DNA of 64,000 bases from Parietichytrium sp. I65-24A (Eukaryota > Sar > Bigyra > Thraustochytrida > Thraustochytriidae), in NCBI GenBank assembly GCA_012862575.1, contig BLSF01000023.1, forward strand, positions 62,001 through 126,000. The letters run 5' to 3'. Shown here in pieces: positions 2,363 through 39,296 of this stretch; the first letter of the stretch is position 1, and the number at the start of each line of letters is the position of its first letter. The translations under genes were made by a program, and so were the position numbers. Below the pieces are notes generated by a model. The model made no database searches. It was given only the letters and a program-made list of their open reading frames with translations, and had not been told where the DNA came from.

Positions 2363-4342
2363 TCAGATGAGCGCCTCTTCGTCATCAGAAAAGTCGTCGC
2401 GGAGAAGGTCCTGAACTCCTGCTGACGCACCGATTTCGCTGAGGCCGGTGAGGTCCTCAAGATAGTCGGGCTCGTTGAAGGCTTTTAGAAGGAAGTCAAA
2501 GCCAGATTTTGCGTATTCGTCCACTACGCATTTCGAGCAAGCAGTGCATTGCGGGAAAGCCGGCCCAGTCATGTTCATAATGTTGTACTCCGGCAGCCAA
2601 CCGCGAAGCTGGTGCGGGATTACGCCGAGTTTCTCAATTCCCGCGCCATCTTGCAAGGCCTTATCGGTGGTTCCTGCCTGATTCCGCAGTTTGTGATGAA
2701 GCAGAGCGACCAACAGCTCTACCAGCAGAGAACCAGCAATTGGTGCAAGCCCCGGACGTGTAACCGTGCATTGCTGATCCAGTGTACGGTCCTTCATGGA
2801 TTTCTGAGGAGAATCGACGTCACTGCAAAAGTAGCACCCAAGACGCTCATTCGGGGGTTGTGTGCTGGTAGGTCCGCTTCCATGACGCATAACCAAATAG
2901 CTATCAAAACCCAGAGCAGAGTCCAAAACAATCTTATCGTGCTTTGCGCCCAAGAGAGTTGGCAGCCATCTGGACTCGCGAGTGTCTGTAAGCAGCATCA
3001 CAACGTCATGCTCTTTGATAAGCGTCTCGAATGTGTCAACATCCTTTCGGGTCGACTCTACAATTGTCTCATTTGCAAGAACGTGCCCAGGCATTGGAAT
3101 AGTCAGGTTCACTGCTCTGGCGTTCACGCCAGGCAGGATTCTCGCAAGTGCATCGGCAGCCGCTTGTGCCTTTGGGCGGCCCCCGTTTTGGCAATCTGCA
3201 GATTCGAAGAGTGACTGACGCACCGGGTTCGAATAAGACACCTTGCCATTGTCAAGCATAGTGATATTGCGAAATCCCCATCCAAGCAAACAACGCGCGA
3301 CTGAGCATCCCAGGGTACCCGAGCCAACAAGAAGACACGAAGTTTGATTTAAAACCTCTGTATCAAGCTCAGGCAGTGCGCGCCAACGCATTAGCTTAAC
3401 GTTCAGATCACATGCAGACTGTGCAAGCTTCTCCGGGTCAAGATGTGGGCTGAGGTCCATCAGCCGGGGCGTCATCTTACCCTTGAATGGTTCCCATCCC
3501 ACCCAATTCGGGCTGGGCACGACGACTTCCCCATCAACTTTGTTTTCGAATGAAAGCTGAACAGAAATGCTCGATTCCTGAGTGTTTCGAATGCAGAGCA
3601 CATTCACACTTCCATTCTCATCAGCGTCAAAATAGCGCCTCAGAATCCACTGCGCAAAGTTCAGCATGGGCCAGCCTGGCTTGTCCGGGAGAGAGCCCGG
3701 GTCAAGCATCCCGAAACACGACAGGGTTCCAGCGCCGGAATTCTTGGCAGAGATCGCCTCTTTCAAGCTCACGACTTTTGCTCCGTCCAAGACGGCAAAA
3801 AATGACGGTAACTTGTGCTCGAGATTGAATAAGGAATCCAAAAGGTCATCTTGCAAATTCAGGCTTGCGATGGGTTGTGCGCCTTTTAAAGCCAACCTCG
3901 AGTCCACCGCACCAGGAAAGCAGAACCAGTACAAGAACTGGTGGTGCTTCAAGTCTGCATAAGAGATTGTTGCAAACCGATTCAAAAGGCTAGGGTCAGC
4001 CTCCACCGCGCCATCATTAATATCTCGGAGAATCTCCACTCCAAGCTCGACAAGCAACTGTTTCTTGTCAAATGCCTTAAAGTCTTCCTTTGTATTTGCA
4101 TTCTTAAGCCTCCCATGCGCGAGGACATCGAAGCGATCTCCCTGTTCTTCTTTCTTCACCGAGTCTGCAAAGCTGTCTCCGCTCAAACGCATGGTCGGGC
4201 CAACATTTGCGTGCCGAGACACTGAGAAAGACCCACGAAGGTCCACCCAGCCGTCGCTGAGCATGAACTGTTCCAACTTCTTCTTGGCAAACAGCGTCCA
4301 AAACGACGCCTCCACCACACTCTGAAACGCCTGACACTGCAT
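2363..4342 (-). CDS. ATG7: Ubiquitin-like modifier-activating enzyme ATG7 (autophagy E1)
   Basis: ATG7 is the E1 that adenylates ATG8 and ATG12 and passes them to ATG3 and ATG10 in autophagosome formation in the cytosol. The 659-residue frame starts with ATG at 4342 and has no intron. The N-terminal half (about 1-320) matches the ATG7-specific domain by position and by patterns such as GWEPFKGKM. The E1 core follows, with the nucleotide loop GSGTLG at 340-345 and the ATG7 hallmark VSYSNPVRQSLFE shortly after. The catalytic cysteine is Cys525 in LDQQCTVTRPG. The CxxC pair in QCTACSKC lies near the C-terminus, and the protein ends in an acidic tail (DDFSDDEEALI). Length is typical (yeast 630, human 703). 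It is co-oriented with the small membrane-protein gene 103 bp upstream. Confidence 0.96.
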   Translation of the reverse strand: MQCQAFQSVVEASFWTLFAKKKLEQFMLSDGWVDLRGSFSVSRHANVGPTMRLSGDSFADSVKKEEQGDRFDVLAHGRLKNANTKEDFKAFDKKQLLVELGVEILRDINDGAVEADPSLLNRFATISYADLKHHQFLYWFCFPGAVDSRLALKGAQPIASLNLQDDLLDSLFNLEHKLPSFFAVLDGAKVVSLKEAISAKNSGAGTLSCFGMLDPGSLPDKPGWPMLNFAQWILRRYFDADENGSVNVLCIRNTQESSISVQLSFENKVDGEVVVPSPNWVGWEPFKGKMTPRLMDLSPHLDPEKLAQSACDLNVKLMRWRALPELDTEVLNQTSCLLVGSGTLGCSVARCLLGWGFRNITMLDNGKVSYSNPVRQSLFESADCQNGGRPKAQAAADALARILPGVNARAVNLTIPMPGHVLANETIVESTRKDVDTFETLIKEHDVVMLLTDTRESRWLPTLLGAKHDKIVLDSALGFDSYLVMRHGSGPTSTQPPNERLGCYFCSDVDSPQKSMKDRTLDQQCTVTRPGLAPIAGSLLVELLVALLHHKLRNQAGTTDKALQDGAGIEKLGVIPHQLRGWLPEYNIMNMTGPAFPQCTACSKCVVDEYAKSGFDFLLKAFNEPDYLEDLTGLSEIGASAGVQDLLRDDFSDDEEALI

Positions 4343-21374: not shown

Positions 21375-21389
21375 ACCAAATGGTGCAAT
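21375..21389 (+). promoter_or_regulatory. Conserved tRNA leader ACCAAATGGTGCAAT
   Basis: This 15-bp block directly precedes the first tRNA copy and is repeated before the other five, at 21792-21806, 22725-22739, 24679-24693, 24897-24912 and 25120-25135. The only changes are one A to G (copy 4) and one extra T (copies 5 and 6). DNA further upstream differs among copies 1-4. It may be a Pol III upstream element, a transcription start block or a processed 5' leader. Confidence 0.6.
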
Positions 21390-21503
21390 GGGGGCGTGAT
21401 GCAGTGGTAGCATGTCTGATTTGCAATGGCAAGTTGAAGCGTTAATTCGCTTAGACTGAAACATAGTTTCAGATTGTCTGGAGTTCGATTCTCCACGTCT
21501 CCA
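21390..21503 (+). tRNA. tRNA-Ala(UGC), copy 1, 42-nt intron
   Basis: All arms pair: acceptor GGGGGCG/CGTCTCC, D stem ATGC/GCAT, anticodon stem TCTGA/TCAGA and T stem TGGAG/CTCCA with loop TTCGATT. The anticodon loop reads TT-TGC-A, giving alanine. The G3-U70 wobble and A73, the classic alanine identity elements, are present. An intron of 42 nt (21426-21467) lies at the canonical position after nucleotide 37. It contains a hairpin AAGCG-TTAATT-CGCTT. The mature tRNA has 72 nt. A T5 terminator follows at 21508-21512. Confidence 0.93.
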
Positions 21504-21806
21504 ATGCTTTTTGCACTTTTGAAAACTCTTCGTTCCTTATTTTTTTCCTCCCTGACAAAAAAAAACTTCAATGACAGCGGAAAGCTGTCTCTTTTATTCT
21601 AGCTTGTTGGCATTCGCATTCAGGTACTCTTGTGTAGGTACAGTTTTTCCCGGCTATCTTTCAGGTTCTCAATGAAAAACAAGGCTTTCGCAGAAATGAA
21701 GTAAACTTTTTTCACAGTTAGTCTTTTCTCCTTTAGGCGTACTAGCCAGATGCTGTCTAACTGTATAGAGTAGCATGCCGAGGAGATGAGTACCAAATGG
21801 TGCAAT
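21504..21806. other. Spacer between tRNA copies 1 and 2
   Basis: AT-rich spacer with an A8 run near 21560. No gene was seen. Confidence 0.4.
21508..21512 (+). terminator. Pol III T-run after tRNA-Ala copy 1
   Basis: Five T residues lie four bases past the discriminator base. Confidence 0.7.
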
Positions 21807-21920
21807 GGGGGCGTGATGCAGTGGTAGCATGTCTGATTTGCAATGACAAGTTGAGGTGTTAAATCACTTGAACTGGAACATAGTTTCAGATTGTCTGGAG
21901 TTCGATTCTCCACGTCTCCA
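21807..21920 (+). tRNA. tRNA-Ala(UGC), copy 2, 42-nt intron
   Basis: The exons are identical to copy 1, including the UGC anticodon, G3-U70 and A73. The intron differs at several sites. Its hairpin is AGGTG-TTAAAT-CACTT, in which the fourth pair is T-A instead of C-G and one pair is a G-T wobble, so pairing is kept. A T6 terminator lies at 21925-21930. Confidence 0.92.
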
Positions 21921-22739
21921 TTACTTTTTTCTTTTTAAAATACAAGGGGTTGTGTACAAATTTTCGTCTTGCGCAGTCGTATGCTTCGAGTCTTTACTTT
22001 TGCTCTGCAAGAGTTCCCTCTTTCTTCTCCTCTTGCGGCTTCCGAAGCAAGCAGATGGATTGCCGCGATTTGTAGACTTGTCCGAACAGAGTGGGTAAAG
22101 TTTGTCATTGAAACTGGGCGACGAAACTCGGATGGCGTTGCGAGGCTTTCTCGAGCCTCACTCCGTCGCGCTCCCACTACCTCGATACGAACAGGGCATG
22201 TGCAACTCTTGTGGAGTAAAGCTGAAGCGATCTGAACAAAGGAAACGCACATATCCGCCACCTCATCTCGGACTCCAAAGTGAAGACATCCTTTTTCGCA
22301 TAATTTGGGTTCGCCTTGACTTGTCACGAGTTCAAGATCCTCACGAATGCAGCCTGGGCGTGCTGGGCGTACATGCTTGGTGAGGTCCTGGTGGGAAGAA
22401 AATTGGTCATCTTTTGCGCCCTGTGGCCGAGCCTGATCTCATGTGGAATTGGACTCTAAACCTATCTTCACGCCGTCAACGTCGTTGCAGCTTTTTTGCG
22501 CTTCCACTTTTCGGACGCTCGAGCGAAATATGTGCGAATTCTTTCTGCCGCTTTTATTAGTCTCAGGTTTCCTTCTCATTTTTTCGAGGGAATCGCAAAT
22601 GAATTAATATTTGAAAAAAAGTGGGAGTTGGTCGATATTGAGGAGGACCCGCGTAGCCCACTGTTAAGTTTTCTCTAATACAGAGAACGAGGAAGGCATA
22701 GTCACAGACCTTAGAAGGGGTCTCACCAAATGGTGCAAT
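21921..22739. other. Spacer between tRNA copies 2 and 3
   Basis: An 819-bp spacer. Both strands carry open frames of about 90-130 codons, but none has a start context, family pattern or codon use that I would trust. No gene was called. Confidence 0.4.
21925..21930 (+). terminator. Pol III T-run after tRNA-Ala copy 2
   Basis: Six T residues lie four bases past the tRNA end, with a second T5 run shortly after. Confidence 0.7.
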
Positions 22740-22853
22740 GGGGGCGTGATGCAGTGGTAGCATGTCTGATTTGCAATGGCAAGTTGAAGTGTTCATTCAC
22801 TTGAACTGAAACATAGTTTCAGATTGTCTGGAGTTCGATTCTCCACGTCTCCA
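22740..22853 (+). tRNA. tRNA-Ala(UGC), copy 3, 42-nt intron
   Basis: The exons are identical to copy 1. The intron hairpin is AAGTG-TTCATT-CACTT, a full compensatory change (C-G to T-A) relative to copy 1. A T6 terminator lies at 22857-22862. This is the last copy before the polytopic membrane-protein gene that interrupts the cluster. Confidence 0.92.
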
Positions 22854-23344
22854 TTCTTTTTTACAAATTTATTATTTCTTTTTTGCCACTCGAGAACATC
22901 CGGACTAAGTTCAGCGGACGCATTCGACTCTTTGGAAATGGGTTTACACGTACACGACTCCTTATCGTCATAATTAGCAATTATTATAACGATCAGGGGA
23001 CCATTTTGTGTCCAGAATTTGCGGATCAAAAATTACTACTGGGAGGAATAATGAGCCTCTACTTGTTCCAATCGTAAAGTATGTGCTAAACCACCATTAG
23101 TGCAGTTTGGGCAGTGCGCTAGTACATTTTTATTAACGAGTATTAGTGCACTATAGGTTTTACTAATATGGCACGCGTCGCGAGTACTCAGTTGGTGGTA
23201 TGCATGCTGAGGATAGAAGTTGCCTACATCTTGCTATCTGGTGAGGTACAGTTGAAGATGTGGCGAGCTCCTAGACATTTCGCCAAGAAATGCGACGATC
23301 TCATGATTTAAGCTAAAGAGTGGTAGTCACGGGCTCACTTGTTG
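22854..23344. other. Gap between tRNA copy 3 and the membrane-protein gene
   Basis: This gap holds the presumed Pol II promoter of the downstream gene. No TATA box or other motif that I can name was seen. Confidence 0.4.
22857..22862 (+). terminator. Pol III T-run after tRNA-Ala copy 3
   Basis: Six T residues lie four bases after the tRNA end. Confidence 0.7.
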
Positions 23345-24541
23345 ATGTTCATTGAACAAGATCGTTCAATCGAGCAGACCCCAATCATTGAACCATTGCC
23401 GACTGAAGACATACAGTCAATGAACGAAAGTGAGCAAGCACCCCGTATCGTTAACGACAGCGACGCGATCATCATCAACATGACCTCGGAGACGGGCAAC
23501 ATGAAGGAGGCTTTGCTGAGTGCAGAGCACGAGGAGAGCGTTGAACCTGCGGAGAAGGAGGGGTATGCGCCAAAGACTCATCAAGACGACCGCGAAGAAG
23601 AGACTGGGATCAAGTCCTGCGCGCAGCCGAAGTGCTCTCATTTGGCTTCTGCTTCCTCTTACTTCGAGTGCAATCATAAAACCTGCTGCGGAAACTACCT
23701 CTGCATCCACAATGCCATCCGCGAAGGAGTGTGCACAGAGTGCCGACGAGGGCCACAAGACGGAAACGATTATACGCCTCTCGGACTTCGTGAAAAGAGC
23801 ATCTCCTGGCCGGCGGTGCTGTTGAAGAGCATATACAGCCGCCACATTGCAACGAGAAGCGTCAAGGAAACGCTGACCAAGGACAGGCTTCCTCCTTTAT
23901 ATTTCACTGTGCTGCTCTACATTTTGCTGCCTCTCATCTCGGACTGTGACAAAGGTCTTCTCTCTTACGGAGTTCTTGTCTTCCTAGTGACTTGCCATGA
24001 ACTCTCCATTGCCGGAAATGCATGGACCATGTACTCGATGAGCGAAAGTCTGATCACAGGCAACAGGAATCTGATTTCGCGCTACATGCCCAACTTGTCA
24101 GAAGTGATGTACCGTGTTGTTTACTCGGGGCTCGCTCTTATTGAGCTGATGGTGATGATGAAATATTTCCTCTTCTTGATCACGTATGGTATGGGACGCG
24201 TGAATCTGCTTTTGGTGGTCAATTTCGTAGCGTACGAGGCACTTATGGCCGTGATGAGCGAATTCGTGTTTCACTCGGGCCCCGATGCCGCAGAGAAGGA
24301 TGCTCCAGTCGACACTTCCACCGCGTGGAACAAAGTTTGGTACACCATCGTGGCTATCGCGTGCAATATGATTACTGCTTTCGCTTTTCAGACCCTGGGC
24401 GGCACTGATCCGTACTCTATCGTGTACATTCTTGCATTCCTCTGGGGGCTCTTCGGACGCGCAAACTTTCTGGTTGTTCTTTCCGTTGCTTCCGCCACTC
24501 TATTTTTTTCCACCAGCTCATTGGAATCTCTATTCTTTTAA
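23345..24541 (+). CDS. Polytopic membrane protein with Cys/His cluster, unknown
   Basis: A 398-residue frame starts with the first ATG (23345). The N-terminal 90 residues are acidic and polar. A Cys/His-rich segment follows at about 93-135 (CAQPKCSH, FECNHKTCCGNYLCIH, CTEC). Its spacing suggests a zinc-binding cytosolic domain. From about 165 to the end there are about six to seven hydrophobic helices (LYFTVLLYILLPLI, VVYSGLALIELMVMM, VWYTIVAIACNMITAF and others). I do not recognise the family. The gene lies inside the tRNA-Ala cluster on the same strand, between copies 3 and 4. Function unknown. Confidence 0.7.
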   Translation: MFIEQDRSIEQTPIIEPLPTEDIQSMNESEQAPRIVNDSDAIIINMTSETGNMKEALLSAEHEESVEPAEKEGYAPKTHQDDREEETGIKSCAQPKCSHLASASSYFECNHKTCCGNYLCIHNAIREGVCTECRRGPQDGNDYTPLGLREKSISWPAVLLKSIYSRHIATRSVKETLTKDRLPPLYFTVLLYILLPLISDCDKGLLSYGVLVFLVTCHELSIAGNAWTMYSMSESLITGNRNLISRYMPNLSEVMYRVVYSGLALIELMVMMKYFLFLITYGMGRVNLLLVVNFVAYEALMAVMSEFVFHSGPDAAEKDAPVDTSTAWNKVWYTIVAIACNMITAFAFQTLGGTDPYSIVYILAFLWGLFGRANFLVVLSVASATLFFSTSSLESLFF

Positions 24542-24693
24542 TTATTGACTAGATTTCTTCTTCATTATTTTTCCACTTCTCCAATGTGAACATGAACACA
24601 AAAGGTGACCAACGAGTTCATGTCTCTTTCGATTCAATCTCACACAGTGTCAATGCGGAGCATGGAGGAGCTCCTGGCACCAAATGGTGCAGT

Positions 24694-24807
24694 GGGGGCG
24701 TGATGCAGTGGTAGCATGTCTGATTTGCAATGGCAAGTTGAAGCGTTAATTCGCTTAGACTGAAACATAGTTTCAGATTGTCTGGAGTTCGATTCTCCAC
24801 GTCTCCA
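24694..24807 (+). tRNA. tRNA-Ala(UGC), copy 4, 42-nt intron
   Basis: The exons and the intron appear identical to copy 1 across all 114 bases, which suggests recent duplication or gene conversion across the interposed protein gene. The leader differs by one base (TGCAGT). A T6 terminator lies at 24812-24817. Confidence 0.93.
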
Positions 24808-24811
24808 ATGC

Positions 24812-24817
24812 TTTTTT
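24812..24817 (+). terminator. Pol III T-run after tRNA-Ala copy 4
   Basis: Six T residues lie four bases after the tRNA end. Confidence 0.7.
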
Positions 24818-24912
24818 AATTTTTGCACGAGGATAATTTTTCTTTCTCCCGCACACTATGGTATTGCGTAACTGATCTTATGGAGCTGGAGAACCAACCA
24901 AATGGTGCAATT

Positions 24913-25026
24913 GGGGGCGTGATGCAGTGGTAGCATGTCTGATTTGCAGTGACAAGTTGAAGCGTTAATTTGCTTGAACTGAAACATAGTTTCAGATTGT
25001 CTGGAGTTCGATTCTCCACGTCTCCA
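24913..25026 (+). tRNA. tRNA-Ala(UGC), copy 5, 42-nt intron
   Basis: Same exons as copy 1. The intron hairpin is AAGCG-TTAATT-TGCTT, with a terminal G-T wobble pair. Copies 5 and 6 also share upstream sequence (GCGTAACTGATC about 35-50 bp before the leader), so this 223-bp unit is a local tandem duplication. A T6 terminator lies at 25031-25036. Confidence 0.92.
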
Positions 25027-25030
25027 ATGC

Positions 25031-25036
25031 TTTTTT
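25031..25036 (+). terminator. Pol III T-run after tRNA-Ala copy 5
   Basis: Six T residues lie four bases after the tRNA end. Confidence 0.7.
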
Positions 25037-25135
25037 GCTTCTCCACGACCATGACGAGATTTTTCTTGCTCTGATACTTTAGTGTATCGCGTAACTGATC
25101 GTAAGGCTCGAAGGGACCAACCAAATGGTGCAATT

Positions 25136-25249
25136 GGGGGCGTGATGCAGTGGTAGCATGTCTGATTTGCAATGACAAGTTGAGGCGTTCATTCGTCGAA
25201 ACTCAAACATAGTTTCAGATTGTCTGGAGTTCGATTCTCCACGTCTCCA
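25136..25249 (+). tRNA. tRNA-Ala(UGC), copy 6, 42-nt intron
   Basis: Same exons as copy 1. This copy has the most divergent intron: the hairpin is reduced to four pairs, GGCG-TTCATT-CGTC. The CTGAAAC arm that could pair with GTTTCAG across the 3' splice site carries a mismatch here (CTCAAAC). A T5 terminator lies at 25253-25257. Confidence 0.9.
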
Positions 25250-25252
25250 ACC

Positions 25253-25257
25253 TTTTT
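25253..25257 (+). terminator. Pol III T-run after tRNA-Ala copy 6
   Basis: Five T residues lie three bases after the tRNA end. Confidence 0.65.
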
Positions 25258-25443: not shown

Positions 25444-27153
25444 TTATTCTCGGCGAGTGGGAACGAGCCAAAGATTGTGCGTATCGTTCGCAATAGAATT
25501 TGTGAGACTCATTGTAAGCATGAGGGTATAGGTAATGTTTTCCGGCTTTTCATTCGCCTCCAGGTGAAATTTAAAGCGCTGAAGCAGCATACACGTCACA
25601 ATCTTCATCTCTTTCTTCGCAAAGTCTTTCCCGAGACAGAATCTAGGCCCTGCCTGGAATACCGGAAACTCAAACATCGACGGCTCAGGCTTGTCAAGCC
25701 ACCGCTCCGGTCGGAACTCACTGGGGTTCTCATACCTTTTTGGGTCTCGCCCCATGCTGTAAGGATCGAACGTTATCCGAATTCCAGGAGGAAGAATGCT
25801 CCCGTCGGGCATTTCAATCGGTTCATAGACGCTCTTGCTGTCCTCGGGCACTGGCGGGTGAAGTCGAAGTGTCTCAAGGATACAGCAGTGGAGGTACTTG
25901 AGACCCGTGAGGTCCTCCATGCGCGGTACCGCTTCTGTTCCGAGAGCTGCTTTAATTTCAGCGGCGAGTTTGTCCTGTACTTGCTGGTGCGTCGCGAGCT
26001 CGTAAAACATCCATGTAAGGGCGCACGCCGTGGTATCGCGGCCGGCAAGAATGAAATTCAGAATTGTGCTCCGGAGTTCAATGTCCGTGTACTTGTGGGG
26101 GCTGTTCATGAAGAACGCCAAGAGATCTCGTCGGTTTTCAAACCCCCCTTCGGCTGCAACTTGTCTTGCTTCTCGGACATACTCATCCGTTTTCTCATGC
26201 AGAAACTTCAGAACCTGTAGGAATTCGGCATAACCAGGATCGATGTAGTTCCGATACAACCTAAACAACGGATTCATGCTCGTGTGGTTCGGGAGAATCG
26301 AGCCAAAAGGAAATGGGAGTAGCCGCGTAGTTATCATGGTCGCAGCAGAAGAAGAGAAAGCGTGTTTGAGCATAGCGCGATGTGCAAGATCAAAGGCATT
26401 GGCGTAGTCGTCCTGCTTTCCGGTGGACATGGAATCGATTTCGCGATTATAAAAGATCTTCTGCACAGCGTCGAAGGTGAAGCAGAAGAAGAGCTCCTGA
26501 AGGTCCACAGCCACTGCTCCTTTGAGGCGATCAGTCGATTTCACTTCTGCGTTGGTTGCTGCCGCCGAATCTAAAATGTCGATCAGTTGCAGACATTTAT
26601 TTGTAAATGTCTCATAAGACAAATTCTCAAAATTTGCCTTTGTAAACAGCTTACTTGCATCTTTTCTTTGCCGATACCACAGATCGTGCTCCTCGGGAAA
26701 GTGTTTGGCGGAGTGACGGATCGCAAAGATACCTTCCTCTCCAACAAAATCTGCAAAGACCGAAAAGTGGTAGTGATCCGTTCTCGTCGACTTTGAGATC
26801 TTGCTGAACCCGGAGGATAACATCACTTCCACAGCCTCGGGCGAGTAGCAGATTACCTCCCCTTCGGGGTTGGAAGTTCGAATCACATGCTGATCCCGGT
26901 AATTGTTCACAAACTCGTTCCTCCAATCATGAAACCTGTGCAGATTTTTCACAAGATCGCTGCGTAAGATGTTGGGGTCGCTGCCCTTCAAGTGCATGAT
27001 TCGCTTCAGCGTCTTGCGATATTTCCGATAAACGATCAGTAGCTTCAGCACGACGTGCACCCCAGCGAACGTGACATACCACTTGACAACGTCCTTCAGC
27101 GTCCACTTTGACAGCGCGCTCCGCAGAGTCGCCAGCCACGCACTCAACTCCAT
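25444..27153 (-). CDS. Cytochrome P450, clan-86-like (fatty-acid hydroxylase candidate), paralogue A
   Basis: A 569-residue intronless frame starts with ATG at 27153; the frame is open upstream but without ATG. An N-terminal hydrophobic helix at about 22-40 should anchor it in the ER. The I-helix reads AGRDTTACALTW, the ExxR motif is ETLR, and the heme-binding loop is FQAGPRFCLG with the heme-ligand cysteine at about 506. The motif set resembles CYP86/94/704-type P450s, which hydroxylate fatty acids at the omega end with NADPH-P450 reductase. Substrate specificity cannot be read from sequence. Long blocks (FPVFQAGPRFCLGKD, HLEANEKPENI) are shared with the P450 at 37581-39296, so the two are paralogues. 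Confidence 0.95.
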   Translation of the reverse strand: MELSAWLATLRSALSKWTLKDVVKWYVTFAGVHVVLKLLIVYRKYRKTLKRIMHLKGSDPNILRSDLVKNLHRFHDWRNEFVNNYRDQHVIRTSNPEGEVICYSPEAVEVMLSSGFSKISKSTRTDHYHFSVFADFVGEEGIFAIRHSAKHFPEEHDLWYRQRKDASKLFTKANFENLSYETFTNKCLQLIDILDSAAATNAEVKSTDRLKGAVAVDLQELFFCFTFDAVQKIFYNREIDSMSTGKQDDYANAFDLAHRAMLKHAFSSSAATMITTRLLPFPFGSILPNHTSMNPLFRLYRNYIDPGYAEFLQVLKFLHEKTDEYVREARQVAAEGGFENRRDLLAFFMNSPHKYTDIELRSTILNFILAGRDTTACALTWMFYELATHQQVQDKLAAEIKAALGTEAVPRMEDLTGLKYLHCCILETLRLHPPVPEDSKSVYEPIEMPDGSILPPGIRITFDPYSMGRDPKRYENPSEFRPERWLDKPEPSMFEFPVFQAGPRFCLGKDFAKKEMKIVTCMLLQRFKFHLEANEKPENITYTLMLTMSLTNSIANDTHNLWLVPTRRE

Positions 27154-28584
27154 CGCGTTGTGTCGAGCCTCTCTGCCACCCCTGGTATCGCTACTCGAGC
27201 ACCGCCTATCGACCAACACGCGACGATCATTGGCGCCTGCCTTCCTGCTGACAATGAACAAACATTGAAGTGATGGACCTCAGTCAGTTTAGTCAGGCTC
27301 AAAGTTACTGAGCATCCAGGTAGTATCTTGTTCCAATGAGCTAGCATTATTCGAGGTATTGGAGGAATTCGATAACCGAGGCCTCAACTTGAAAGCGTGT
27401 TGTTCTCAAACAGTCGAAAAGAGGACAATGTCAACTGTTGTTGCTATCACAGTCAAACTCACTGTCAATTGAAATGAATGAATCCAAAGAGAGCCACAAT
27501 CTACTGTTATTGAACGTCGTCTGTCACGTTGAAATTATGTGAAATTGGGTCAGTCAAGAGTGTCAAGAGAAATAGGTTAGGAGGACCACTATCTCTAAAT
27601 AGCTGTTGTTTTAAGGGAAGGAAGTTTCCTTCGCTGGTCCTAGGCGATTAGCTGTACTTTGGATACACTATAATGTAAGCTAGACCAGATCTAAAACCTC
27701 GTTCAATCTCACACACTTTTTACTACTCCCCGCCGTATTCAAAGTTTAAGGCAAATGGTTAGAAAATAGTATGAAGCTGACTAGCACACTGCGCTGCTTA
27801 GAGGTTCTATAATGCATCTTAGTGAGCCACTACACCCCAGAATAAGCTACGGAGATTACGAAAAATGGTAAACATTGCTAGCAATCATTCGCTCCACCAG
27901 CTACCCACCAGGCTTACCGTAGCTAGCGGGACTGCTATCCCCCCTCTCCGAAAAGCATCCCAAAATCGTCGAAAAAAAAGAAGAAAAATAAGGACGAAAA
28001 TCTCCAAAAAAAATCCAAGGAGAACACTGCGAAAAAACAAAACAAACGCCCCCCTCCGGTTACTACTCTTCCCTATTGGAAGCTTACCTGCGCATCCGCG
28101 GGCACCCCTGCCGACGACAGCGTCCCACCCATCGGCTCTTGAATCTCAAGCATCCCGTCCCGCGACCCACCCCACCGCGTCCGAGGACACCGGCCCACAC
28201 AACAGTCAAGCGAGACCCCCACAGTGCTCTCCCTCTCTTCCTCTCCTTCTCTTTCCTTCTCTCTCTCTCACACACTCACACACTCACACACACACACACT
28301 CCGGGTGTGCGCGAGAGCGTCCTCGGTGGGGTTGACATACCCGGAGCCTAGGGTCCGCAGGCGGACAGGCGGACAAGCAGGAGAAAGCAGGAGGTAGCGC
28401 GGTTAGGAGAAGCCGGTAGGAGCAGGGCGCGAAGAAGGACAACAACGGTCGGTAGGTGAGAAGGAGATTATAGAGATTGGATTGCACAGTTCGCAGTTGG
28501 TTGGCGCGAGATTGAGAGTGAGATTTGGAGTGAGATTGAGATTTATAGTGGACAAGTTGATAGTGAGCTCGCAGGTGGAGAGAA
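27154..28584. other. Divergent promoter gap P450 A / PP2A scaffold
   Basis: Mostly unique AT-richer sequence, with pyrimidine and CA runs at about 28230-28300 on the PP2A side. No gene was recognised. Confidence 0.5.
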
Positions 28585-36698: not shown

Positions 36699-37580
36699 AG
36701 TAGTCATTGTCAATGCAACGCACAGGGCCAGCCAGGCCAGCTCCAACCCGGGACTCCTGTGTCTTGCTTGTTCTGCGACTCTGTGAGAGTCGCGATTGGG
36801 TCCTCTGGCTCCCGTTGCCTTTTATCTTCTGTCTTTGGTTTCTTCCCGAGGTTGTCTCGATAGGCTCGATACTTGCGGGAAGCTAGCTGGCGAGCTGCCC
36901 AACCTTGGAGCTTCTGGACTTTCATCGCTTTCTTTCGCGAAGGAGGAGCTTCACAAGTGTTTTTTTTCTTCTGTGAGAGGAATTGAGAGGAGAGACATCT
37001 CGAGTGCCTCTTTCGAAAGGTTTCTCCTTCCCTCGCCGAGGATGATCGCAGTGAACTTGATCACAATCAGCACTCAGTGGCTTCTGTTCCATGCGAGGGG
37101 GTTTCGTGAGAAGAATTCAGAAGATTGCGGCGAAGTGCGCGACTTGATCTAGAACCACGCGAACCATGTTGCAAGGATTGAAGCCGCGTTTGCGCAAAGA
37201 ACGTATGACTCACTACAATCATTTCGACCAGAGCGCAGCTACTCCAAAGCGAACTTGTAGTCACAGTCAGTAGCTGGCGTTGGAAGAAGGCCATACTGAG
37301 TACTGTATATTGTGGTACATTTGGTTCGTTGATGTTGTGAGTCTGAGTACCGGTACCAGTAGTCTGAGTCCAACAGAAACATTTACAGAATTCAGAAATT
37401 CAGATGGTTAGAGTTTAGTACTGACACCGACAGTGAGTCCTGAGTACCCTCATCTCCCGACTTGCAAGCAGACTTTGAAGCTGCGCGTTCTGACGGCGAG
37501 TACTTGGAAAGGGGCAGCAGACCTCGAATTCATCGCAGGAGCGCAAAAGACAAGTGGCGACACAGAAAGCATAGAAAGCC

Positions 37581-39296
37581 ATGAATCTCGTGACGGCTTG
37601 CCGCACCGTGGTGCGCAACGCACTCCGTCATGGGTTGAAAATGACCTGGAAAGATTGGGTTCGCGCCTACCTGTACTTTGCGGTTTCGCACACGGCCTTT
37701 AAAGTCTTGCGATGGTACTTGAATGATTTGAGGACGACCCGCGCCCTCAAGCACCTGAAGGGCAACCCTCGCGACTACACCGGCAAGGAGATGCTCAAGA
37801 ATTTGAACCGTCTACACGACCACATGAACGATCAGGTTGTCAAGTACAAGGATCAGCCGCTATTCTTGACGTCGGCCCCTGAAGTCGAAGTTGTTTGCAA
37901 CACTGCGGACACCATCGAGCAGGTGTTGCGAAGGGATTTCAATAAGGTGACGAAACCAGGTCAAGACCAGGACTACTTCTTTCTACTACTCGCTAAGTTT
38001 TTAGGAGACGAGGGAATTTTCGTGATGCGTCACGGGTCAAAACTTGCTGCAGAGCACTCTCTCTGGTATGACCAAAGAAAGACAGCAAGCAAAATCTTCA
38101 CGAAAAACAACTTTGCCAAAATGATGTATGACACGCTCGTTGAGAAGAGTCAGAATCTGGTCCGTGTCGTCTCCCAAGCTGCTGACAGCAACGAATCAGT
38201 GGAGGGATTTGACCGGAAGAAAGGTGCGGTGCCTGTTGATATCGAGGAGAAATTCTTCTGTTTCACATTTGATAGCATTCAGACCTTCTTCTTTAACCGC
38301 TCAGTCGATTCCATTTCAACAGGGCAGCAGGATGAGTATGCCGCTGCATTTGACGACGCACATCGAGAAATGATGCTGCACATGGTTCGAGCCATGCCTG
38401 CCCTCGTCATGACGACGAACTTCCTTCCATTCCCGTTTGGCAGTCTCTCCAGCAGCAAGACGTCTTTGAACCCTGGATTCTGGCTGTACAAAAACTTTTT
38501 CGACAAACACTACAGGAACTTTGTGTCTCATGTTGAGAGAATTGACCGGATCACTCACGAGGTCATTCAAGAGGCTCGCTCGGCCCCAAAGGACGGTCTA
38601 AGCCATCGTAAAGACCTGTTGGCGAACTTTTTGAGACACAATAGCGAGCTTACCAACAAACAGCTACGCGACATCATCCTCAACTTCATCATCGCCGGCC
38701 GCGATACCACCGCCTGCACATTGTCTTGGATGTTCTACGAGCTATCGCAGAATCAGCAAGTTCAGGACAAGTGCGCTGCTGAGATCAGAGAGCACCTTGG
38801 AAAAGATCGAATGCCCACCTTGGAAGATTTGGCAGAGTTGAAATACCTTCACGCAGTCATGCTCGAGACTTTGCGATTGCACCCACCGGTCCCGCTAGAA
38901 TCCAAGTACACGCTGGAACCGATCACTTTCTCAGAAGGCACCACGGTCCCAGCCGGAGTTCGAATCATGTTTTCGCCCTATGGTATGGGCCGCAATGCCG
39001 ACATTTACGAAGACCCATACGTGTTCAAACCAGAGCGGTGGCTAGGGAAGAAGGAGCCTTCTATGTACGAGTTTCCTGTTTTTCAGGCTGGTCCGCGTTT
39101 TTGCCTCGGAAAAGATCTTGCGAAAAACGAAACCAAGTTGATCACTGCCTTGCTGCTCCAAAAGTTCTCGTTCCACCTCGAGGCCAACGAGAAGCCAGAA
39201 AACATTTCATACTCCATCATGGTCACCATGAGTTTGGTAAATTCCAAGGACAAGTCCTCGCATAGCCTGTGGCTGGTCCCAAAGCATCGACACTAA
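37581..39296 (+). CDS. Cytochrome P450, clan-86-like, paralogue B
   Basis: A 571-residue intronless frame starts with ATG at 37581. An N-terminal anchor-like helix lies near 32-45. Motifs are the I-helix AGRDTTACTLSW, ExxR ETLR, PERW, and the heme loop FQAGPRFCLG with the heme-ligand cysteine at about 508. Layout, length and long blocks match paralogue A at 25444-27153, including the C-terminal HLEANEKPENI and SLWLVP. The two lie on opposite strands 10 kb apart, so they are not a simple tandem pair now. The likely role is ER-bound hydroxylation of a fatty acyl or other lipid chain, by family resemblance only. Confidence 0.95.
   Translation: MNLVTACRTVVRNALRHGLKMTWKDWVRAYLYFAVSHTAFKVLRWYLNDLRTTRALKHLKGNPRDYTGKEMLKNLNRLHDHMNDQVVKYKDQPLFLTSAPEVEVVCNTADTIEQVLRRDFNKVTKPGQDQDYFFLLLAKFLGDEGIFVMRHGSKLAAEHSLWYDQRKTASKIFTKNNFAKMMYDTLVEKSQNLVRVVSQAADSNESVEGFDRKKGAVPVDIEEKFFCFTFDSIQTFFFNRSVDSISTGQQDEYAAAFDDAHREMMLHMVRAMPALVMTTNFLPFPFGSLSSSKTSLNPGFWLYKNFFDKHYRNFVSHVERIDRITHEVIQEARSAPKDGLSHRKDLLANFLRHNSELTNKQLRDIILNFIIAGRDTTACTLSWMFYELSQNQQVQDKCAAEIREHLGKDRMPTLEDLAELKYLHAVMLETLRLHPPVPLESKYTLEPITFSEGTTVPAGVRIMFSPYGMGRNADIYEDPYVFKPERWLGKKEPSMYEFPVFQAGPRFCLGKDLAKNETKLITALLLQKFSFHLEANEKPENISYSIMVTMSLVNSKDKSSHSLWLVPKHRH

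Follow-up and report, generated by a model that had tools for sequence, protein, structure and literature searches.

What kind of locus is formed by six tRNA-Ala(UGC) genes that lie together on one strand, each interrupted by an intron of the same length, and does anything in it set it apart from the rest of the genome? The genes occupy part of a 64,000-nt stretch of DNA (G000:C23:62001-126000, hereafter the window), which belongs to a genome of 42.5 Mb in 172 contigs that was searched as a whole. Our answer is that the six genes form a tRNA gene family of an ordinary kind, whose layout is like that of many others in this genome, and that the part worth following is a short element upstream of the genes, with the core CAACCAANTGGT, which is widely shared among tRNA genes of other kinds. 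The account that best explains the locus, to which we give a probability of roughly 0.8, is that these would be working nuclear tRNA-Ala(UGC) genes of thraustochytrid type, in which RNA polymerase III (Pol III) starts under the direction of the element, a hairpin intron is removed by a SEN-type endonuclease, and the copies owe their likeness to selection and homogenisation together with tandem duplication.

The six genes are all on the + strand and 114 bp long. Their 72-nt exons show 0 differences in 15 of 15 pairwise comparisons, their 42-nt introns differ from one another at 0-10 nt, and runs of 5, 6, 6, 6, 6 and 5 T residues follow copies 1 to 6 in that order. An earlier, sequence-only reading of the locus had given the strand, the lengths, the identical exons and the T5-T6 ends of the genes, and alignment and scans agree with it. 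The Rfam tRNA covariance model (gathering score 29) returned five of the six copies in a scan of the whole window, at 50.6 bits each, and copy 5 reached 50.6 bits when its own stretch was scanned alone. ARAGORN called all six as Ala(TGC) when introns of up to 200 nt were allowed, five at its default intron setting, and none as offered. The alanine identity set consists of G3:U70 and A73; in the eight distinct sequences known from the genome, position 3:70 (alignment columns 3-111) is G-U in every case, and the last base (73) is A.

A DNA search with one copy found nine places, namely the six in the window, two on contig C119 and one on C34, and a search with the joined exons (E <= 10) returned the same nine genes, each split by the intron, and nothing more; copy counts from such genome searches are lower bounds. 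The three copies outside the window also score 50.6 bits (3/3), and the intron is present in 9/9 of the nuclear tRNA-Ala(UGC) copies found. Intronless Ala(TGC) predictions come from a mitochondrial gene on contig C141 and from a near-identical stretch on C67. The latter, the one candidate for an intronless nuclear gene, was rejected, as it nearly matches the mitochondrial tRNA-Leu/tRNA-Ala region; the stretch (L028, G000:C67:100206-103277) may be mitochondrial DNA inserted into the nuclear genome, or else an assembly error. The cloverleaf score, G3:U70 with A73, the place of the intron, the pairing of anticodon arm and intron described below, the terminators and the nine intact copies support the identification of the window copies as real intron-containing tRNA-Ala(UGC) genes, whose products are predicted to accept alanine and to serve in translation.

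What lies in front of these genes is of wider interest. Copies 1-3 share an identical 15-bp leader, ACCAAATGGTGCAAT. The sequence-only reading had assigned this leader to all six copies, which holds for the first three and fails for copies 4-6, copy 4 having one substitution and copies 5 and 6 one extra T. That the leader might be a private mark of the cluster was rejected, its core being present at many other tRNA genes. This emerged from 88 nuclear tRNA genes, set against about 500 tRNAs (493, PMC7073664; 552, PMC12258536) in two published thraustochytrid genomes. A gene entered the set through its tRNA score or T-arm pattern and not through the element, and the one region picked by the element (L076) gave no gene; 63 of 1347 candidates were scored, and three further stretches that had been taken up as candidates (L054, L055, L056) held no tRNA gene. 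Dropped from the count were a doubtful Trp prediction (L004) and three genes with less than 40 nt upstream (L045, L051, L057), at which element-like sequences can be seen by eye.

The pattern ACCAANTGGT, matched at 8 or 9 of its 9 positions, occurs no more than 60 nt upstream of 42/88 nuclear tRNA genes, and 20 of the 26 isoacceptor groups include one or more such genes; when Ala(UGC) is left out, the core stands upstream of 33 of 79 sampled genes. The same pattern was met in 4 of 936 segments of 64 nt from the window outside the cluster and in none of 69 downstream flanks of 40 nt. Among the 79 genes the reversed pattern stood upstream of 4, and five other control words upstream of 0-2 each. 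An unbiased count of 7-mers over these 79 genes ranked ACCAAGT, AACCAAG, CCAAGTG, CAAGTGG and CAACCAA highest, all of them parts of the element and each present in 12 to 14 isoacceptor groups.

How might such an element work? When the genes are aligned on the element (41 of the 42 could be used), TATA-like matches peak at -30 with a mean of 3.80 of 7, a value reached by 0 of 5000 circular shifts, the highest of which gave 3.34; aligned on the gene start, the corresponding value is 3.02. The distance from element to gene varies between -4 and +19 nt, and in some genes the element overlaps the first bases of the tRNA. Because its distance to the TATA-like box is nearly fixed and its distance to the gene is variable, the element reads most naturally as a start site. 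In plants, tRNA genes have a TATA box upstream and a CAA motif at which transcription starts (PMC11700998). The present arrangement is similar, a CAA-containing element near the gene following a TATA-like box at a distance of about 30 bp; it differs from the plant motif of that paper in that the element is a longer near-palindrome, found in at least one gene of most isoacceptor groups sampled. The element looks like a longer relative or analogue of the plant CAA motif, and by this analogy Pol III is predicted to start at its CAA. We infer that CAACCAANTGGT serves Pol III as a start element in a modified form of the TATA/CAA arrangement of plants; each gene would be transcribed separately, from within or next to the element as far as its T5-T6 run. 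The general form of the proposal is more tentative, and we hold it at slightly below even odds: many tRNA genes of most isoacceptor kinds would depend for their start on an external Pol III promoter in two parts, the TATA-like box and the element about 30 bp later, whose position is fixed to the TATA-like box and not to the tRNA, and whose last bases are sometimes the first bases of the tRNA itself. If the element does set the start of tRNA transcripts, this lineage combines the internal tRNA promoter with a strong external start signal, and the upstream regions would be convenient Pol III promoters for expressing small RNAs in thraustochytrids.

The element is also nearly palindromic, which would suit a site for a sequence-specific activator, for instance one of the basic helix-loop-helix (bHLH) type. 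The E-box form is CANNTG; the core CAANTG fits it, and CANNTG is retained in the variants ACCACGTGGT and ACCAGCTGGT. An activator site that plays no part in setting the start is nonetheless unlikely in our estimation, as the near-fixed TATA-like box and the shifting gene distance are what a start site would give, the element runs into the first tRNA bases in some genes, and the flanking positions -2 and -1, which were not used for selection, are Y in 38/42 and A in 34/42 genes and so lend direction to an otherwise near-symmetrical sequence. Two observations weigh against the element as a start signal. At the threshold used, 46 of the 88 tRNA genes are without it, and the strict 12-mer AACCAANTGGTT has 41 strand matches genome-wide, against 21 for its reversed control, so that it is not confined to tRNA genes.

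The intron itself is placed between nucleotides 37 and 38 by the covariance alignment and by the positions of the stems; ARAGORN likewise puts it at 37/38, but gives a length of 24 for copies 1, 4 and the copy on C34. The anticodon-intron pair of pre-tRNAs joins position 32 with intron position -3. When the nine copies (eight distinct sequences) were used to test intron structure, a fold in which the intron extends the anticodon arm had 98.9% of its cells paired, and slid versions of it at most 53.7%. The pair between U32 and the intron A at -3 is invariant in 8/8 distinct sequences and so contributes no covariation; in two stem pairs both partners change (GC/AU and CG/UA). Shuffles lend the pairing moderate support: shuffled sequences reach the count of pairs changed on both sides in 272/500 cases, the percentage paired in 24/500 and the covariation score in 4/500. 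Pulling in the other direction, one stem pair is broken in 3/8 distinct sequences, and three of eight copies folded singly (copy 1, C119b and C34) have another hairpin arrangement as the minimum-energy fold. Against the account as a whole it also counts that the genome yielded no ligase: RtcB was not found (its control was positive in 9/14 genomes), nor were two Trl1 domains (their controls were likewise silent).

Domains of other processing enzymes have matches in the genome. Those to SEN-type endonuclease domains lie on C90 (E 9.7e-12) and C11 (E 1.6e-6; another part there falls under the cut-off), and a Tpt1-type phosphotransferase lies on C6 (E 1.8e-59). The latter contig has two successive Tpt1 (2'-phosphotransferase) domain matches (L088 and L089, G000:C6:530571-531809), each given with an open frame of 480 aa; the second match is far weaker than the first. 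With Tpt1 present and RtcB not found, the enzyme set leans, tentatively, towards the ligase route of fungi and plants. In the pre-tRNA, the 42-nt intron would form a hairpin that prolongs the anticodon arm, and U32 would pair with A(-3); a SEN-type endonuclease would cut after A37 and before nucleotide 38, and a ligase together with the Tpt1-type phosphotransferase would join the halves.

The sequence-only reading had called intron-containing tRNA-Ala uncommon among eukaryotes, which is fair, though the case is not unique: a review reports three introned tRNA-Ala(UGC) genes in the yeast Lachancea thermotolerans (PMC4090602). The genes described here resemble those in the isoacceptor, and share with eukaryotic introned tRNA genes the place of the intron one nucleotide 3' of the anticodon and an intron length within the range of 6-133 nt given for eukaryotes in the same paper; unlike those of the yeast, they belong to another lineage, number nine found copies against three, are clustered, and carry an intron of 42 nt in which the stem differs from copy to copy. 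They add the case of an intron in every copy found of one isoacceptor in a little-studied lineage. A literature search, mostly of open papers, turned up no paper visibly concerned with the tRNA introns of labyrinthulomycetes or with their Pol III start elements, and the excerpts of the two thraustochytrid genome papers (PMC7073664, PMC12258536) hold nothing on tRNA introns or clusters. Within this genome, Gly(GCC) genes also appear introned, judged by eye from length (5/5 reported copies at 83-86 nt; in L046, L070 and L072 a short intron of about 11-12 nt that varies in length between copies), as do the Tyr genes (2/2 at 86 nt).

Is the crowding of the six genes exceptional? The gaps between them are 303, 819, 1840, 105 and 109 nt. 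Homogeneous tRNA clusters have been defined by gaps of <1000 nt (Bermudez-Santana et al. 2010, PMC2888827); the present genes are like those clusters in consisting of one isoacceptor in parallel orientation with gaps mostly below that value, and unlike them in that the rule divides them into two clusters of three, copies 3 and 4 being 1840 nt apart, and in that the members have introns. Comparable groups of one kind are Asn (7 genes within about 10.6 kb of C20), Glu(CTC) (6 within about 6 kb of C37), Gln (6 within about 1 kb of C2, of which five are CTG and one TTG), Ala(AGC) (5 on C6), Thr(AGT) (5 on C86) and Leu(CAA) (4 on C29), with three genes apiece for Trp, Cys, Pro and Gly(GCC). Altogether, 17 of 26 sampled isoacceptor groups, Ala(UGC), Val(GAC) and Gln(TTG) included, have at least two genes with the same anticodon in one locus of no more than 3.1 kb; some regions of this sample were taken up because neighbouring genes showed in the match lists. 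Because clusters of one kind are common here, the density of the tRNA-Ala(UGC) genes is no special mark. The sequence-only reading had drawn recent expansion or concerted evolution from that density; copies 4-6 do form a tandem array.

The two spacers of this array agree at 85 of 100 aligned positions and have 14 gap positions, which fits an origin of copies 4-6 by tandem duplication of a unit of about 220 bp. The other window copies have little in common beyond leader and gene. In the copies on C119 and C34, AACCAAAT stands directly 5' of the gene; window copies have 8 or 9 nt more between element and gene. Over all 114 bp there is no difference between copies 1 and 4, as had been stated, and an open frame separates the two. 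This frame (23327..24541, +, 404 aa) lies between copies 3 and 4; it matches nothing in Pfam, and by eye it contains hydrophobic stretches. The earlier suggestion for the identity was gene conversion or segmental duplication. A segmental duplication with long flanks could draw on the 114 identical bp and on the ATGCTTTTT that both copies share on the 3' side, yet the upstream match ends after 13 nt, the downstream match extends to 15/18 nt with a score of 21 that equals the 95% level of the null, and no further similarity was found in the 200-nt flanks; on these flanks it was rejected as very improbable. A short conversion tract or another short copying event fits the identity of copies 1 and 4, and would have been recent; the identical exons of the nine copies would be maintained by selection and homogenisation. 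Least probable of all, and likewise rejected, is that the copies are pseudogenes or a tRNA-derived repeat of the short interspersed element (SINE) type: copies 1, 2 and 3 do share leader and gene with others and not the longer flanks, but in place of many dispersed, often truncated copies there are nine full-length places (a lower bound), with identical exons and an unbroken cloverleaf, and in the window a T run follows every copy.

The attribution to a lineage comes from contig C141 (39.3 kb), which carries mitochondrial genes, named by eye. TTA as a stop is a mark of the Thraustochytrium mitochondrial code. The eight open frames read on C141 contain TTA 6 times against 141 TTG, so that TTA is avoided inside them; by reading, four of the six stand before the start codon and two near the gene end. 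A nad3-like frame (L029 1997-2437) seems to end ...GALEWE-TTA, and the parts of the contig that were read hold Leu tRNAs CAA and TAG and none with TAA. The thraustochytrid Schizochytrium sp. TIO1101 is also reported to use TTA as a stop in its mitogenome (PMC7799850). The genes of C141 thus appear to end at TTA, which points to a labyrinthulomycete of thraustochytrid type. The nad5-like region of this contig (L022, about 2430-3072) has a repeated stretch around an unknown base, perhaps an assembly join.

Table 1. Positions of the tRNA-Ala(UGC) genes, their upstream elements and the tandem array in the window
Feature	Position	Strand	Intron	T run	Rfam tRNA score (bits)	Remarks
tRNA-Ala(UGC) copy 1	21390..21503	+	21426-21467	T5 21508-21512	50.6	exons 21390-21425, 21468-21503
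tRNA-Ala(UGC) copy 2	21807..21920	+	21843-21884	T6 21925-21930	50.6	
tRNA-Ala(UGC) copy 3	22740..22853	+	22776-22817	T6 22857-22862	50.6	
tRNA-Ala(UGC) copy 4	24694..24807	+	24730-24771	T6 24812-24817	50.6	same as copy 1 over 114 bp
tRNA-Ala(UGC) copy 5	24913..25026	+	24949-24990	T6 25031-25036	50.6	score when scanned alone; absent from whole-window listing
tRNA-Ala(UGC) copy 6	25136..25249	+	25172-25213	T5 25253-25257	50.6	
Tandem array of copies 4-6	24694..25249	+				start-to-start 219 and 223 bp; spacer similarity
Upstream dyad element ACCAAATGGT, copy 1	21375..21384	+				probable Pol III start element; sequence
Upstream dyad element, copy 2	21792..21801	+				sequence
Upstream dyad element, copy 3	22725..22734	+				sequence
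Upstream dyad element, copy 4	24679..24688	+				sequence
Upstream dyad element, copy 5	24897..24906	+				one extra T between element and gene
Upstream dyad element, copy 6	25120..25129	+				one extra T between element and gene

Some further observations concern other genes. The one U6 locus, read by eye, has TATATATA followed by ACCGGGTGG (6/9) and is not counted as support for the element; four 5S loci read by eye gave no clear match to it. Six 5S rRNA genes lie on the same strand about 630-660 bp apart at G000:C29:178026-181372, and many other 5S matches are scattered on other contigs. In the window, two long frames at 25444-27279 (-) and 37575-39296 (+) appear by eye to be cytochrome P450-like and related to each other, the Pfam test having been made on the first.

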